Made by a program: the position numbers and the translations under genes
Shown: positions 55,945 through 62,125 of the stretch, one piece after another
Layout: every line of letters begins with the position of its first letter
Numbering within the stretch: the stretch's first letter is position 1
The notes under the pieces: model-generated
Databases searched by the model: none
Told to the model about the DNA's origin: nothing
What the model saw: only the letters and a program-made list of their open reading frames with translations
NCBI RefSeq assembly: GCF_014193515.1
Contig: NZ_BLXX01000008.1
Coordinates: 62,001-126,000, forward strand
Length of the DNA stretch: 64,000 bases
Source: Geomonas silvestris
GTDB lineage: Bacteria > Desulfobacterota > Desulfuromonadia > Geobacterales > Geobacteraceae
Reading direction: 5' to 3'

Positions 55945-57603
55945 ATGGTGCTGCGTCCGCTGCTGTTCTCCCTGATCTTCTTGGTTCTTCTCGCCACGGC
56001 CGTTCAGGCTTCCGGCGATCCCGTCCTCGTCGCCTCGCAGATAAGCTCCGTAACGGTGTACGCCGACCAGGCACAGGTAACCCGGAAGGGAAGCGTCAAC
56101 CTGAAGGCCGGCCTCAACCTGGTGAGCATCGACAACCTGCCACTCACCTTGAACCAGGAATCGTTGCGGGTCTCAGGAAAAGGGACCGGCGTGGCGCGCA
56201 TTGCGGGTCTCACCGTGAAGCCGGTATTCCTGGAGCGGCTCCAGGAGCAGCGCATCCGCGAGCTGGAGGAGCAGGTCGAGGTAGTGCAGCGCAAGGTGGC
56301 AACCCTGGAGGCGCGCCGCAAGGGGCTCTCCGCACAGAAGGCGTTTCTCGAGTCGATCCGGGTGGGCTGGGGCGAGCGGATCTCCAAGGAGCTGGGACAG
56401 GGGAAGCCGGCCACCGGCGAGTTGAACGAGGCGGCGAGATTCGTGGGTGATGGGGTTGGCAAGGTGGAAGAGAGCATCTACGACACCGATGCCGCCAAGA
56501 AGCCGCTGCAGGAGAGGATCAACGCGCTCAAGCAGGAGCTGGAGCAGGCCAAGGGGAACCGCAGCAAGGAGGTGCGCAACGTCGAGGTCGCCATCGAGGC
56601 GGAGCGTCCGATGAGCTTCGACCTCGAGCTGAGCTATCTGGTCAGCGATGCGCACTGGATCCCGACCTACGATCTGCGCCTCAACGCCGAGGGGACCGCG
56701 GCAGAGCTTACCTACCGGGCCCAGGTCTGGCAGCTGACCGGGGAGGCCTGGCCCAAGGTCAGGCTGGCGCTCTCCAGCGCGCGTCCCGAGGCGGGTGGCG
56801 CGCCGCCCGAGCTTTTCCCGTGGCACGTCGGCTTCTACCAGCCCCCCATCCCGCTGCCGCGTCCGGCCGCCAAAAGGGCGCTTACCTTTGGTGCCGCCGC
56901 TCCCCCCGAAGCGCAGGCGCTGGAGGCAGTGGACGGTGCAGCTCCCCGCCCGGCCCCGGCACGCCCGGTGGAGGCGGAGCTCGCCGAAGGGCAGACCTCG
57001 GTCCTCTTCGGGGTGCCCCAGCCGGTGGACATCCCGGCTGACGGCAGCCGCACCGGCACGGTCATCGCGCTGGCCACCCTCCCGGTAAGCGCCGAGTACC
57101 AGGCGACCCCGAAGCTCTCGCCGCGGGTCTATCTGAAGTCCGAGGTGACCAACGCGTCCAACTACCCGCTGCTGGCAGGCGAGGTGAACATCTTCAACGA
57201 TGCGGTCTTTACCGGGAAGAGCCTGCTGAAAACCGTGGCCGCCGGCGAGAAGTTCGATCTCTTTTTCGGGGCCGACGACCGCGTCAAGGTGAAGCGCGAG
57301 GTCAACCGGGTCGGCAAGCAGGGAGGGATCCTGGGCAACAGCCGGATCAGCTACCGGGTGAGCGTCGAACTGGACAACTTCAAGAAGCAGCCGATCCGCC
57401 TGTCTCTTTTGGACCAGCTGCCGCTTGCGGGGAACGAAGAGATCAAGGTGAAGCTCGAGGAGGAAAAGCCCGCACCCGACGAGCGCAAGCCCGACGGCAC
57501 GCTGGTCTGGAAGCTCAACCTGGCCCCCGGGGAGAAGAAGAAGCTCAGCTACGACATAGTGATCGAGTACCCGAAGGGGCGCACACTCACTGGTGCCGAA
57601 TAG
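55945..57603 (+). CDS. MuiA-family protein (DUF4140-DUF4139), exported
   Basis: A 552-residue secreted or periplasmic protein. Signal peptide VLRPLLFSLIFLVLLATAVQA. An N-terminal DUF4140-like part (ISSVTVYADQAQVTRKGSVNLKAGLNLVSIDNLPLTLNQESLRVSG), a coiled coil (LQEQRIRELEEQVEVVQRKVATLEAR), then the DUF4139 beta domain (SYLVSDAHWIPTYDLRLN, AQVWQLTGEAWPKVRLALSSARP, and the C-terminal NFKKQPIRLSLLDQLPLAGNEEIKVKL, KPDGTLVWKLNLAPGEKKKLSYDIVIEYPKG). Family members were named mucoidy-inhibitor proteins. TCTGGAGG precedes the ATG. It forms an envelope cluster with the barrel gene before it. Confidence 0.85.
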   Translation: MVLRPLLFSLIFLVLLATAVQASGDPVLVASQISSVTVYADQAQVTRKGSVNLKAGLNLVSIDNLPLTLNQESLRVSGKGTGVARIAGLTVKPVFLERLQEQRIRELEEQVEVVQRKVATLEARRKGLSAQKAFLESIRVGWGERISKELGQGKPATGELNEAARFVGDGVGKVEESIYDTDAAKKPLQERINALKQELEQAKGNRSKEVRNVEVAIEAERPMSFDLELSYLVSDAHWIPTYDLRLNAEGTAAELTYRAQVWQLTGEAWPKVRLALSSARPEAGGAPPELFPWHVGFYQPPIPLPRPAAKRALTFGAAAPPEAQALEAVDGAAPRPAPARPVEAELAEGQTSVLFGVPQPVDIPADGSRTGTVIALATLPVSAEYQATPKLSPRVYLKSEVTNASNYPLLAGEVNIFNDAVFTGKSLLKTVAAGEKFDLFFGADDRVKVKREVNRVGKQGGILGNSRISYRVSVELDNFKKQPIRLSLLDQLPLAGNEEIKVKLEEEKPAPDERKPDGTLVWKLNLAPGEKKKLSYDIVIEYPKGRTLTGAE

Positions 57604-57735: not shown

Positions 57736-58152
57736 ATGAAAGACAATCTTGCCGCCGGCATTACCCATACCCATACCTTCCGCGTCCCCTTGGAAAAGAC
57801 GGTGCCGCGGCTCTACCCCGAATCGGCGCTGTTCCGGGAGATGCCCGAGGTCTTCGCCACCGGCTACCTGGTCGGGTTCATCGAGTGGGCCTGCATGGAG
57901 GCGCTGCAACCCTTCCTGGACGAAGGGGAGCGCTCGGTCGGGACCATGATCAACGTGAGCCATTCCGCCGCGACGCCGCCGGGGATGGAGGTGACCGCGC
58001 AGGTGCGCCTGGTCGAGGTGAACGGCAAGAGGACCCTTTGGGAGGTCGAAGTCCACGACGAAAAGGATCTGATCAGCAAGGGGAGCCACGAGCGCTTCAC
58101 CATCAACCTGGAACAGTTCAAGGAACGACTCAAGAAAAAAGAGCAGGGATAA
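57736..58152 (+). CDS. Hotdog-fold acyl-CoA thioesterase (fluoroacetyl-CoA-thioesterase-like)
   Basis: A 138-residue single hotdog domain related to FlK-type thioesterases: RVPLEKTVPRLYPESALFREMPEVFATGYLVGFIEWACMEALQPFLDEGERSVGTMINVSHSAATPPGMEVTAQVRLVEVNGKRTLWEVEVHDEKDLISKGSHERFTINLEQF. The FATGYLVGFIEWACMEAL helix and HSAATPPG loop hold the Thr/Glu/His-type residues of the family. It probably hydrolyses a short or toxic acyl-CoA. AGGGAGG precedes the ATG by six bases. It is followed by the repeat-rich region and the protease-barrel gene. Confidence 0.8.
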   Translation: MKDNLAAGITHTHTFRVPLEKTVPRLYPESALFREMPEVFATGYLVGFIEWACMEALQPFLDEGERSVGTMINVSHSAATPPGMEVTAQVRLVEVNGKRTLWEVEVHDEKDLISKGSHERFTINLEQFKERLKKKEQG

Positions 58153-58437
58153 AACGGATAAAACCCTAAAACTAACAGGGATGAATGGAATTAACGGGAT
58201 AAGGCTACTGCAAAACTAACAGGGATAAATGGAATTAACGGGATAAGGCTACTGCAAAACTAACAGGGATAAATGGAATAAGGCAAAACTGGGCCTAAAT
58301 CCGTTAAGTCCACGTCTAAGTTACGGCATTTGATGTATCCCTTCGTCCCTTTCATCGCATTAATCCCCGTTAGATAAGAGTTTATCCCATCAATCCCATT
58401 CATCCCTGTTAGATTAGGTTTTATCCCATTATCCCTG
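58144..58437. repeat. 44-bp direct repeats with a distant inverted copy
   Basis: A 44-bp unit (AAAACTAACAGGGATGAATG / GAATTAACGGGATAAGGCTACTGC) is repeated from 58168, 58212 and 58256 (last copy partial). About 100-200 bases downstream (58358-58437) the reverse complement of the same words (CATCCCTGTTAG, TTTATCCCAT) appears, so the transcript could form a long imperfect stem. It fills the space before the protease-barrel gene. Confidence 0.8.
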
Positions 58438-58458
58438 TTTCTTTCACGAAAGGAGCTT

Positions 58459-61400
58459 ATGAGATCATCTGTTATCGCTGTCCTGGTCACCCTGGCCATG
58501 CTCTGCCTGGCTTCTGTTTCCCGCGCCGCGCACCTCGACACCTCGTTCGTCTTTTCCACCATCGAGACGGCCAACTTCTCGGTCCACTACCACCAGGGGC
58601 TCGAACCTGTGGCGCGTAAGGCGGCGGCCATCGCCGAAGAGGTGCACGATTCGCTCGGCAACCAGTTCGGCTGGCGGCCGGTAGAGAAGACCCAACTGGT
58701 GCTGATCGACAACTCCGACTTCACCAACGGGCTCACCACCGCCCTCCCCTACAACTCCATCCTGATCCAGGTGGTACCGCCGGCGCTCGACTCGACCATC
58801 GGCGAGTACGACGACTGGCTCAAGGTCCTGATCACCCACGAGTACACCCACATCGTGAACCTCGACCCCTCGCGCGGCTTCTGGCGCACCACGCGCAGCA
58901 TCTTCGGCAAGTCGATCCCCGGGGCGGATCCTTTCTCCGAACTGGTCTTTTTCCTCTCGGCCCCTCCGAACATCTTCCTCCCCCGCTGGTGGCACGAAGG
59001 GATGGCGACCTGGGCCGAGACCGAGTTCAACGGCCAGGGGCGCGGCACCAGCAGCTACTACGACATGGTCTTCCGCATGGCCGTGGCGCAAAACAGGCTC
59101 CCCCGGGTGGACCAGATCAACGGCGACGTCCCCTTCTGGCCCTCCGGGAACCTGCGCTACCTCTACGGCTACCGGTTCCAGAAGTTCCTTGCGGACCGCT
59201 ACGGCAAGGATGCCCTCGGCGTCCTGAACCTGAGCCATGCCGGCCGCTTCCCCTACTTCATCAACGGGGCGCCGGAGCAGTTCTTCGGTAAAAGCTACGA
59301 CCGGCTCTACAACGACATGCTCCTGGAGCTGCGCGCGGAGCAGCAGAAGAAGATCGCGAAACTCTCCCAAAAGCCGTTTACCCCGACCCTCATCCTGAGC
59401 GACCGCGGGGAGCGGCTCACCAACCCGAGGTTCTCTCCCGACGGCAGCCGCCTCGCCTACACCCGGCGCGACCCGCACGACCACACTACGGTGGTGGTCA
59501 CCGACCGCACCGGCGCGAACCAGGTCGCCGAGTTCCGGCGCCTCCCCTCGGACGGGAACCTGAGCTGGTCGCCGGACGGCTCGAAGCTCTACTTCACCCA
59601 GGCAGAGATCAACCGCGGCTTCGACGTCTACCAGGATCTCTACGAGTACGGCATAGCTGAAGACCGGATCACCCGGCTCACCCGCGGCGAGCGGCTCTCC
59701 GGTGTCGACGCAAGCCCCGACGGCAGCCGCTTCGTGGCGGTGGCGAGCAACCGCGGCAGCCAGAACCTGGTTCTCTTGGAGCGCGACCTGAAGCCGCGCC
59801 AGCTTACCCGCTACAGCGACCAGAGGGTCTCGAACCCGCGCTGGTCGCCGGACGGCAGCAGCGTCTGCTATGCCCTGCGCGACAACGCCGGCCACAGCTC
59901 GCTGCACCTTTTCCGCGTGGCGACCGGTGAGGACTCCACCCTGTTCAGCGCCCCCTTCAGCGTGGACCAGCCGAGCTGGTCGCGCGACGGCTCCTTCATC
60001 GTCTATGTCTCCGACGAGACGGGGGTCTTCAACCTCTTCGCCTTCCGGCTCGCCGACCGGCAGAGCTACCAGGTGAGCCACCTCCTGGGGGGAGCGCTCC
60101 AGCCTGGCCTCGCCCCCGACGGCAAGGCCGCAGTCTTCTCAAGTTACGAAAGCCGCGGCTTCCGGATCGCCCAGCTAGCATTCGATCCCGGGAACTTCAG
60201 CACGGAGCGGGGCCCCTCCCTGCCGCTTACCCGCAAGCTCCCGGTCGAGCAGGCAGGCCCGGCAACCGGCGCGCCGGTAAACCAGCAGCAGGCAACAGCC
60301 CCCGCGGCACCTGGGGGCGCGACTCGCGCGCCGAGCGCTGCGGCTGCGGCCGCTGTGGCCACGACTTCCGAACCGGCCCTTCCGGCGGTGACCGGCGCCC
60401 CCTACCGGGCCTGGCCTACCCTGCTGCCACACTTCTGGCTCCCCCGGCTGACCGGCGACGGTTCCGACTCCCCGGTCCTCGGGGTCTTCACCGCGGGGGC
60501 CGACGTGCTCGGCTACCAGTCCTACGCCCTTTCGGCCGATTACAGCTTCGGGAGAGAGCGCGGCTATTTCGACCTCATCTACCGCAACGATTACTTCTAC
60601 CCGACCTACACGCTGCTCGGGCACGTGCAGCCGGTCCTCTACGGCAACCTGCAGCAGCGCGGCGACTACTGGGAGCTCGACCAGGGGTTCACCGCCCAGG
60701 TTTCCTACCCGATCAACTTCCTGGAATCGCGCTACCTCTTAACCGGCGGCTACCAGTTCGAAGACCAGAGCGCGCTCACCGGCCTGAGCCCGTCGGGGAG
60801 GTTCAACGGGCTCAACGTCTTCCAGGGGAGGCGCACCAACCTCTTCGCCGGGCTCATCATCGACAACGCCTTAAGCTACCCCTACTCGATTTCCCCCGAG
60901 GAAGGGCGCACCGTCGACCTCACCTACCGCCGCTTCGACCGGGCCTTCGGGGGCGACCTGGACTACTCCCAGCTCGAGGCCCGCTACCAGGAGTATCTGA
61001 AGCTCCCCTTCGGCTCAGAACGGCACCAGGTGCTCTACCTGCGCCTGTCCGGCGGCATCGCCGACCTGAGCCAGAGGTACGCGCAGCAGGCCTTCCAGAT
61101 CGGCGGCGTCCCTTCCGATCTGAACCCGTACCCGGTGCGCGGCTACCCGTCCCGCTCCCAGACCGGTAAGTTCGTGGCCACCGGCACCGCGGAGTACCGG
61201 GCGCCGCTCTTCTACCCGATGGCCGGCCCCGGCACCGGTCCGGTGTTCGCCGAGAAACTGCACGGGGCCCTCTTCGTCGACGCGGGCGAAGTCTGGGACG
61301 ACCAGAACCATTTCGACACCGACCGGCTCAAGGTCGGGATCGGCGCCGAGGCCCGCCTGGACCTCACCCTGGGATACTGGCTCAAGGTGACGCCGGCGCT

Positions 61401-61470
61401 CGGCGTTGCACACGGCTTCCGCGCCGGAGGAGAAAACCAGGTATACTTAACGATATACGTCAACCTGTAG
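58459..61470 (+). CDS. Fusion: peptidase-MA-like zinc protease, TolB-like propeller, Omp85-type barrel
   Basis: A 1003-residue exported outer-membrane protein. Signal peptide SSVIAVLVTLAMLCLASVSRA. A gluzincin-type domain with HEYTH at residues 127-131 and the third zinc ligand Glu180 in WWHEGMATWAETE (peptidase MA pattern). From about 310 to 590, WD40/PD40-like TolB repeats (RFSPDGSRLAYTRRD, SWSPDGSKLYFTQ, DASPDGSRFVAVAS, RWSPDGSSVCYALRD, SWSRDGSFIVYVSD). After an Ala/Pro linker (about 610-650), a C-terminal Omp85/surface-antigen-like barrel ending VYLTIYVNL. AAAGGAGC is five bases upstream of the ATG. Zinc-site residues are intact, so proteolysis at the cell surface or periplasm is likely but untested. 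Confidence 0.85.
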   Translation: MRSSVIAVLVTLAMLCLASVSRAAHLDTSFVFSTIETANFSVHYHQGLEPVARKAAAIAEEVHDSLGNQFGWRPVEKTQLVLIDNSDFTNGLTTALPYNSILIQVVPPALDSTIGEYDDWLKVLITHEYTHIVNLDPSRGFWRTTRSIFGKSIPGADPFSELVFFLSAPPNIFLPRWWHEGMATWAETEFNGQGRGTSSYYDMVFRMAVAQNRLPRVDQINGDVPFWPSGNLRYLYGYRFQKFLADRYGKDALGVLNLSHAGRFPYFINGAPEQFFGKSYDRLYNDMLLELRAEQQKKIAKLSQKPFTPTLILSDRGERLTNPRFSPDGSRLAYTRRDPHDHTTVVVTDRTGANQVAEFRRLPSDGNLSWSPDGSKLYFTQAEINRGFDVYQDLYEYGIAEDRITRLTRGERLSGVDASPDGSRFVAVASNRGSQNLVLLERDLKPRQLTRYSDQRVSNPRWSPDGSSVCYALRDNAGHSSLHLFRVATGEDSTLFSAPFSVDQPSWSRDGSFIVYVSDETGVFNLFAFRLADRQSYQVSHLLGGALQPGLAPDGKAAVFSSYESRGFRIAQLAFDPGNFSTERGPSLPLTRKLPVEQAGPATGAPVNQQQATAPAAPGGATRAPSAAAAAAVATTSEPALPAVTGAPYRAWPTLLPHFWLPRLTGDGSDSPVLGVFTAGADVLGYQSYALSADYSFGRERGYFDLIYRNDYFYPTYTLLGHVQPVLYGNLQQRGDYWELDQGFTAQVSYPINFLESRYLLTGGYQFEDQSALTGLSPSGRFNGLNVFQGRRTNLFAGLIIDNALSYPYSISPEEGRTVDLTYRRFDRAFGGDLDYSQLEARYQEYLKLPFGSERHQVLYLRLSGGIADLSQRYAQQAFQIGGVPSDLNPYPVRGYPSRSQTGKFVATGTAEYRAPLFYPMAGPGTGPVFAEKLHGALFVDAGEVWDDQNHFDTDRLKVGIGAEARLDLTLGYWLKVTPALGVAHGFRAGGENQVYLTIYVNL

Positions 61471-61522: not shown

Positions 61523-62125
61523 ATGAGAGTCATCGTCGTGGGAGCAACCGGCACCATCGGCAAAGCTGTCGCCAAGCTCCTGAGCGCAGAACACGAGGTA
61601 GTGAAGGTTGCCTCGAAAAGCGGGGACATCCGCGCCGACATCACCAGCAAGGAATCGCTGCATAAGCTCTTCAAGGAGGTGGGTCCGTTCGATGCGCTGA
61701 TCTGCGCGGCCGGCGTGGCGCGCTTCGCACCGCTCACCGAGTTAAGCGATGCGGACTTCCAGCTCGGCCTGGACAGCAAGCTCATGGGGCAGGTGAACCT
61801 GGTGCGAGTGGCCTTGAACCACATCAAGGACCAGGGGTCCATCACCCTCACCAGCGGCGTCTTGAGCCAGCAGCCGATGCCGGGAAGCAGTTCGATCAGC
61901 ATGATCAACGCGGGCATCGAGGGTTTCGTCCGGGCGGCGGCGCTGGAGATGCCCCGCGGCATCCGGATCAACGTGGTGAGCCCGCCGTGGGTGAAAGAGA
62001 CCTTGCTGGCCCTGGGGATGGACACCTCGCTGGGGATTCCGGCGGAACGTGTGGCCGAGGCGTACCGCTCCAGCATTTCCGGGGCGCGCAGCGGTATCGT
62101 CATCAATGCGAGGGATTTTGCCTGA
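61523..62125 (+). CDS. Short-chain dehydrogenase/reductase family protein, atypical active site
   Basis: A 200-residue Rossmann-fold SDR. The nucleotide-binding start MRVIVVGATGTIGKAVAKLL has the TGxxxGxG loop, and CAAGVARFAPLTELSDADFQLGLDSKLMGQVNLVRVAL and ITLTSGVLSQQPMPGSSSISMINAGIEGFVRAAALEM follow. The usual catalytic YxxxK is missing: the position reads SMINA, so it may bind NAD(P) without classical catalysis or use another residue. AGGAGGA lies five bases upstream of ATG 61523. It is followed by glutathione peroxidase after 14 bases. Confidence 0.85.
   Translation: MRVIVVGATGTIGKAVAKLLSAEHEVVKVASKSGDIRADITSKESLHKLFKEVGPFDALICAAGVARFAPLTELSDADFQLGLDSKLMGQVNLVRVALNHIKDQGSITLTSGVLSQQPMPGSSSISMINAGIEGFVRAAALEMPRGIRINVVSPPWVKETLLALGMDTSLGIPAERVAEAYRSSISGARSGIVINARDFA

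Follow-up and report, generated by a model that had tools for sequence, protein, structure and literature searches.

What does a protein do that joins a predicted zinc protease, a beta-propeller and an outer-membrane barrel in a single chain, and on which side of the membrane would it work? Such a chain is encoded at positions 58459 to 61470 of the window, by which we mean the whole stretch of 64,000 nucleotides of Geomonas silvestris DNA that was analyzed. A first-pass annotation had described it as a self-anchored surface or periplasmic protease of uncommon build, an interpretation that we find partly supported.

The open reading frame lies on the forward strand, as do all of its features given below. 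It starts with ATG, has no internal stops and comprises 1003 codons plus the stop, yielding a protein of 1003 amino acids. A ribosome-binding-site-like AAGGAG (58450 to 58455), read from the sequence, ends three bases 5' of the ATG. Residues 1-23 (58459 to 58527) appear by eye to form a Sec-type signal peptide with cleavage near SRA-A, and the AlphaFold2 model has an N-terminal helix at this position. No lipobox was seen when the translated signal peptide was inspected by eye. The nearest named match to the protein comes from Geomonas limicola (L032, 87% identity). Compared with the nearest homologue, dN/dS is 0.166 for the whole gene, 0.106 for the protease, 0.183 for the propeller, 0.131 for the barrel and 0.546 for the linker. 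These values and the conservation of the zinc site rule out a chance reading frame, and the locus is confirmed as a genuine, intact gene of this 5.1-Mb genome.

The DNA upstream of the gene (58136 to 58444) carries 44-bp direct repeats (AAAACTAACAGGGAT...) together with inverted copies (34 nt, 88% complementary). The 19-nt repeat core occurs in 33 copies genome-wide when at most one mismatch is allowed, against 0 for the reversed control. The repeats are a dispersed intergenic repeat family.

Domain architecture and membrane topology

Structure prediction was in line with the three domains proposed earlier. The full-length AlphaFold2 model, built from 25 sequences (pLDDT 76.0, pTM 0.72), shows a gluzincin-type head followed by a propeller and a barrel. 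The propeller spans residues 306-590 (59374 to 60228) and is recognized as TolB-like by Pfam (PD40, five stretches, 3.7e-22, above cut-off), by NCBIfam (TolB, 1.8e-26) and by its fold, the model superimposing on the TolB structure with a Z of 26.4 and an rmsd of 2.5 over 240 aligned residues. It scores 93 bits and so stays below the TolB equivalog cut-off of 343; the N-terminal domain of TolB is absent and the peptidase domain occupies the N-terminus instead. A separate TolB gene is found elsewhere in the same genome, and a Pal-interface His of E. coli TolB already differs in this TolB. Between propeller and barrel lies the Ala/Pro linker noted in the first-pass annotation (residues 591-646; 60229 to 60396), in which 18 of the 56 residues are Ala and 8 are Pro. 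Its length varies from 20 to 107 residues across the alignment rows, and the pLDDT is about 30 over much of it. Since the linker is disordered in the model, the propeller is not docked to the barrel there in the way of a POTRA domain.

The C-terminal part of the protein (residues 661-1003; 60439 to 61467) is predicted to be an Omp85-type barrel, which agrees with the membrane anchor that had been suspected here. Pfam matches Omp85 (PF01103) to residues 692-964 at 7e-11, above cut-off, the secondary structure of the model contains 16 barrel strands, of which the first is short (residues 661-665), and comparison with the BamA and Sam50 folds gives a Z of about 20-21. A BLASTP comparison of the barrel with the genome's own BamA returned no significant match, and hence its kinship to BamA rests on the Pfam match and the fold. 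The sequence VRGY (residues 893-896; 61135 to 61146) sits in a 31-residue loop that separates strands 11 and 12 in the model, and its R894 and G895 are invariant across the 20 rows of the barrel alignment. We take this loop to correspond to loop 6 of BamA and VRGY to be a form of the Omp85 loop-6 motif, (V/I/L)RG(F/Y). Because 16 strands with VRGY between strands 11 and 12 fit the canonical Omp85 topology, the N-terminal domains should face the periplasm, and on the modeled topology the protease head would lie on the periplasmic, not the surface, side. Of the two locations offered at first, the periplasmic one is thus favoured over the surface, also by comparison with PlpD, whose enzyme domain was found to be periplasmic (PMC11116518).

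No POTRA family was detected in the protein by Pfam at E values up to 1. Under the definition set out in PMC4104836 the protein belongs to the Omp85 superfamily by virtue of its barrel domain, and POTRA-less subfamilies are still counted as members there; under the definition in PMC11116518, as worded there, it lacks the required POTRA domain.

The protease head

Residues 26-302 (58534 to 59364) form a gluzincin-type zinc protease domain, judging from fold matches, conservation and alignments. The intact active site that had been read from the sequence is placed correctly: HEYTH covers residues 127-131 (58837 to 58851), and Glu180 (58996 to 58998) is part of WWHEGMAT. From established gluzincin chemistry we assume that H127 and H131 are zinc ligands, that E128 is the catalytic Glu and that E180 is the third ligand. 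All four residues are invariant in the 25-row alignment. HExxH and Glu180 are also present in 39/39 aligned sequences (the query, a copy from its own genome, L001, and 37 others, near-duplicates included). In a wider survey spanning several phyla, 74 of the 75 homologues that cover the site retain HExxH plus the Glu; the survey had 76 rows, and L142, in which the site is missing at a contig edge, was left out. The exception is L145 (genome G061, contig 75), a full-length protein of 967 amino acids in which Y-E-K replaces H-E-H and Lys replaces Glu180. L145 keeps propeller and barrel and, judged by its sequence, is probably a naturally protease-dead relative.

Assignment of the head to a peptidase family is less straightforward. 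The query matches Pfam Peptidase_MA_2 weakly (1e-3, below its cut-off), and no Pfam peptidase family exceeds its cut-off for this protein. Peptidase matches among 23 sequences were all weak (Peptidase_MA_2 in 16/23, M48 in 3/23), with no M1 or M9 match to the query or within this set, and the protease profile matched no sequence among the solved structures. PF00149, a metallophosphatase family, has no Pfam match in the query either. This family defines the 'Metallo' subfamily of Omp85 proteins as described in PMC4104836, which resembles our protein in the name Omp85-metalloprotease but differs in its defining domain.

The head alone was also modeled with AlphaFold2 (23 sequences; pLDDT 76.7, pTM 0.79). 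For this model Foldseek returned 20 matches at E values up to 0.001, headed by collagenase G, the insulin-regulated aminopeptidase and other gluzincins (best 5.3e-5), and VIA-align superimposed the head on an M1 peptidase with a Z of 14.9 and an rmsd of 4.6 over 223 aligned residues. In the full-length model HExxH is carried by the helix of residues 117-134 and the downstream Glu by a second helix, residues 176-191. Both the motif arrangement and the catalytic fold of gluzincins are predicted. The head thus shares the gluzincin fold and the HExxH...E arrangement with the catalytic domains of M1 aminopeptidases and M9 collagenases, but at the sequence level it matches neither those Pfam families nor a chain of solved structure. 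Although the Peptidase_MA_2 match is weak, fold and conservation support the protease identity, and on the model the head has a gluzincin fold outside any peptidase family that could be named. It is also the most conserved domain, with a mean column identity of 71% compared with 58% for the propeller and 64% for the barrel.

Distribution and inheritance of the architecture

A full-length search (E up to 1e-25) found the gene in 26/297 genomes of its own phylum. With partial matches counted, it was found in 20/247 genomes of a second phylum, that of the Aminicenantes record L063, and in 2/77 genomes of a third, that of L051, titled Nitrospirae. The combination is therefore not as uncommon as had been supposed, and the joining of a propeller to an Omp85 barrel was already given a class of its own in 2014 (PMC4104836). 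All 18 congeners searched carry the gene at full length or nearly so, one match beginning at query residue 76 and another at residue 22, at a contig end. Among 20 relatives outside the genus only one has it. This patchy presence suggests horizontal transfer or repeated loss.

Profiles of the single domains recover nearly the same genes. The barrel-only profile hits 21/297 genomes and the protease-only profile 24/297. Both domains stand on one frame in 18 of the 21 barrel genomes (G061 with its lost zinc site included); in the other three the parts lie on two contigs (G298) or a contig end truncates the frame (G133, G268). Five genomes were hit by the protease profile only; four of them match the barrel more weakly (E 3e-7 to 2e-26), and the fifth has a cut frame. 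Pairwise identities of the domains correlate at 0.949-0.962 in 41 non-redundant sequences. The co-divergence test drew on the 48 of 78 sequences in which all three domains cover more than 75% of each model; L145 stands outside its 48/48. Given the close overlap between the barrel and protease searches and the parallel divergence of the domains, we regard the architecture as old and inherited, not as a chance fusion. A recent fusion or an assembly artefact is ruled out by this co-inheritance and by recurrence in three phylum-level searches.

Across 40 surveyed loci the protease was recognized in 38 (the two others being cut by contig ends), the propeller in 38 and the barrel in 30. Three of the ten loci without a barrel match are cut by contig ends. 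The other seven frames (L164, L165, L171, L174, L175, L176 and L179, all from the same phylum as L063) are complete and encode 980-1076 amino acids, with a protease and a weak propeller match; one of them, L165, includes a run of unknown residues. Their C-termini go unrecognized by the barrel profile and perhaps hold a diverged barrel. L063 itself was dropped, since its frame joins propeller parts to an N-terminal stretch that is unrelated and includes unknown residues; it is probably a scaffold artefact.

In the query genome the gene is flanked by a DUF4140/DUF4139 protein (55945 to 57603) and a short-chain dehydrogenase, SDR (61523 to 62125), as in Geomonas/Citrifermentans-type genomes, with a FlK-type thioesterase (57736 to 58152) between the DUF4139 gene and our gene. 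DUF4139 and SDR neighbours appear at 24 and 30 listed loci, respectively, same-genome duplicates included. No dedicated operon partner was found: these neighbours recur only around Geomonas/Citrifermentans-type loci, and no neighbour cluster is common to more than 5/25 loci. The same genome encodes a BamA with five POTRA stretches, a TamA-like protein, three M48 matches and two short Omp85 proteins of 411 and 414 amino acids (L184 and L185, on contigs 3 and 15). Given this set, the protein described here is best seen as an accessory Omp85 protein. The two short proteins have no POTRA match and resemble the 'noNterm' subfamily as described in 2014 (PMC4104836).

Candidate function

Several known systems frame the question of function. 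In 2014 Heinz and Lithgow described ten Omp85/TpsB subfamilies, one of which, WD40-Omp85, has a TolB-like propeller and was likened to a BamA-BamB fusion (PMC4104836). Our protein agrees with this subfamily in its propeller nearest to TolB, placed ahead of an Omp85 barrel, in the absence of POTRA and in a scattered taxonomy that was read there as horizontal transfer. It differs in its peptidase, since the main text of PMC4104836 mentions none for the subfamily and uses the word 'peptidase' 0 times. A 2024 paper keeps metalloprotease, WD40-like and patatin-like subfamilies separate in the text available (PMC11116518). Literature searches of open-licence papers yielded no description of the three-domain architecture. 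Thus, the class of propeller plus barrel is already known, while its protease head has seemingly escaped notice and is apparently unreported. The patatin-Omp85 protein PlpD likewise has an enzyme domain ahead of its Omp85 barrel in one chain, but that enzyme is a phospholipase and is accompanied by POTRA, whereas here a zinc protease is combined with a propeller. The E. coli zinc protease BepA acts in the periplasm at the BAM complex, where it degrades stalled LptD and misassembled BamA (PMC8423444). The likeness is that of a zinc protease acting in the periplasm at an Omp85 barrel, with a propeller as partner (BamA and BamB); in E. coli, however, these are separate proteins and the protease is of the M48 family, whereas the query is one chain with a different peptidase family.

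The most plausible reading, which we hold tentatively and would not yet call probable, is a zinc metalloprotease that is anchored in the outer membrane, bears a propeller arm and serves envelope-protein quality control or maturation in the periplasm. It is favoured because BepA acts at BAM and because PlpD shows that an enzyme on an Omp85 barrel can remain periplasmic and act on envelope components. The computed support comprises the gluzincin fold with its conserved zinc-site residues, the TolB-like propeller, the linker, the Omp85 barrel and their co-inheritance, to which the export signal, seen by eye, may be added. The barrel would sit in the outer membrane and leave the N-terminus on the periplasmic side, and the flexible linker would let propeller and protease move below it. 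The propeller might capture envelope protein clients, which the head, by its predicted activity, would cut beneath the outer membrane. The most likely clients would be outer-membrane proteins or lipoproteins, subjected to quality control or matured, and the single chain may work much as BepA does alongside BamA and BamB. We are surer of the class of function, a tethered periplasmic protease, than of the client. The patchy presence, in one of the 20 relatives searched outside the genus, speaks against a core part in the assembly of the outer membrane. Further observations count against the reading itself: BamA, a TamA-like protein and three M48 matches are present in the genome, so that no vacant role is proved, no partner gene is common to more than 5/25 loci, and the propeller is not docked to the barrel in the model.

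Unlikely, yet to be taken seriously, is a barrel that is an inert anchor, with a tethered protease whose clients have nothing to do with outer-membrane assembly but are ordinary proteins or peptides of the periplasm. The disordered, length-variable linker (20-107 residues), the patchy occurrence and the want of a conserved partner outside the genus group would all suit such a protein. However, an Omp85 barrel would be an odd choice as a mere anchor, and its invariant loop-6 RG and low dN/dS (0.131) speak for more than that. It is improbable, in our view, that the protein is an assembly platform of the BamA-BamB type whose peptidase fold has only a structural role: HExxH plus Glu in 74/75 homologues and the strongest constraint on the head stand against it, even though it comes close to the Heinz and Lithgow account of the propeller-barrel class (PMC4104836) and L145 keeps the architecture minus the zinc site. 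Quite improbable is a self-secreting surface protease, whose barrel would carry the N-terminal domains to the outside. The surface location offered in the first-pass annotation and the older autotransporter view of PlpD (cited in PMC11116518) speak for it; against it stand the canonical Omp85 topology, the need to unfold two folded domains of about 570 residues for passage, and the PlpD domain, which was shown to remain periplasmic (PMC11116518). A two-partner-type exporter, whose cargo crosses the barrel and is clipped and matured by the head, is very improbable, since an adjacent cargo gene is absent and neighbour clusters are common to at most 5/25 loci, although the superfamily does include TpsB exporters (PMC4104836).

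L145 also weighs against the tethered periplasmic protease that we favour, in that the scaffold might have a role that needs no proteolysis. It is possible, though rather doubtful, that the whole WD40-Omp85 subfamily consists of outer-membrane-embedded zinc proteases, each uniting protease, client-binding propeller and Omp85 barrel in one chain, that inspect or mature envelope proteins at the membrane, with occasional protease-dead scaffolds such as L145. Searches of open-licence literature found no experimental work on propeller-bearing Omp85 proteins. The architecture is of a known kind, plus a catalytic domain that is apparently unreported, and not a new category. With its conserved predicted catalytic head, what was a vague notion of an assembly platform becomes an enzyme that can be tested, and the protein offers a natural one-chain case in which predicted proteolysis would be coupled to an Omp85 barrel, with an apparently protease-dead homologue for comparison.
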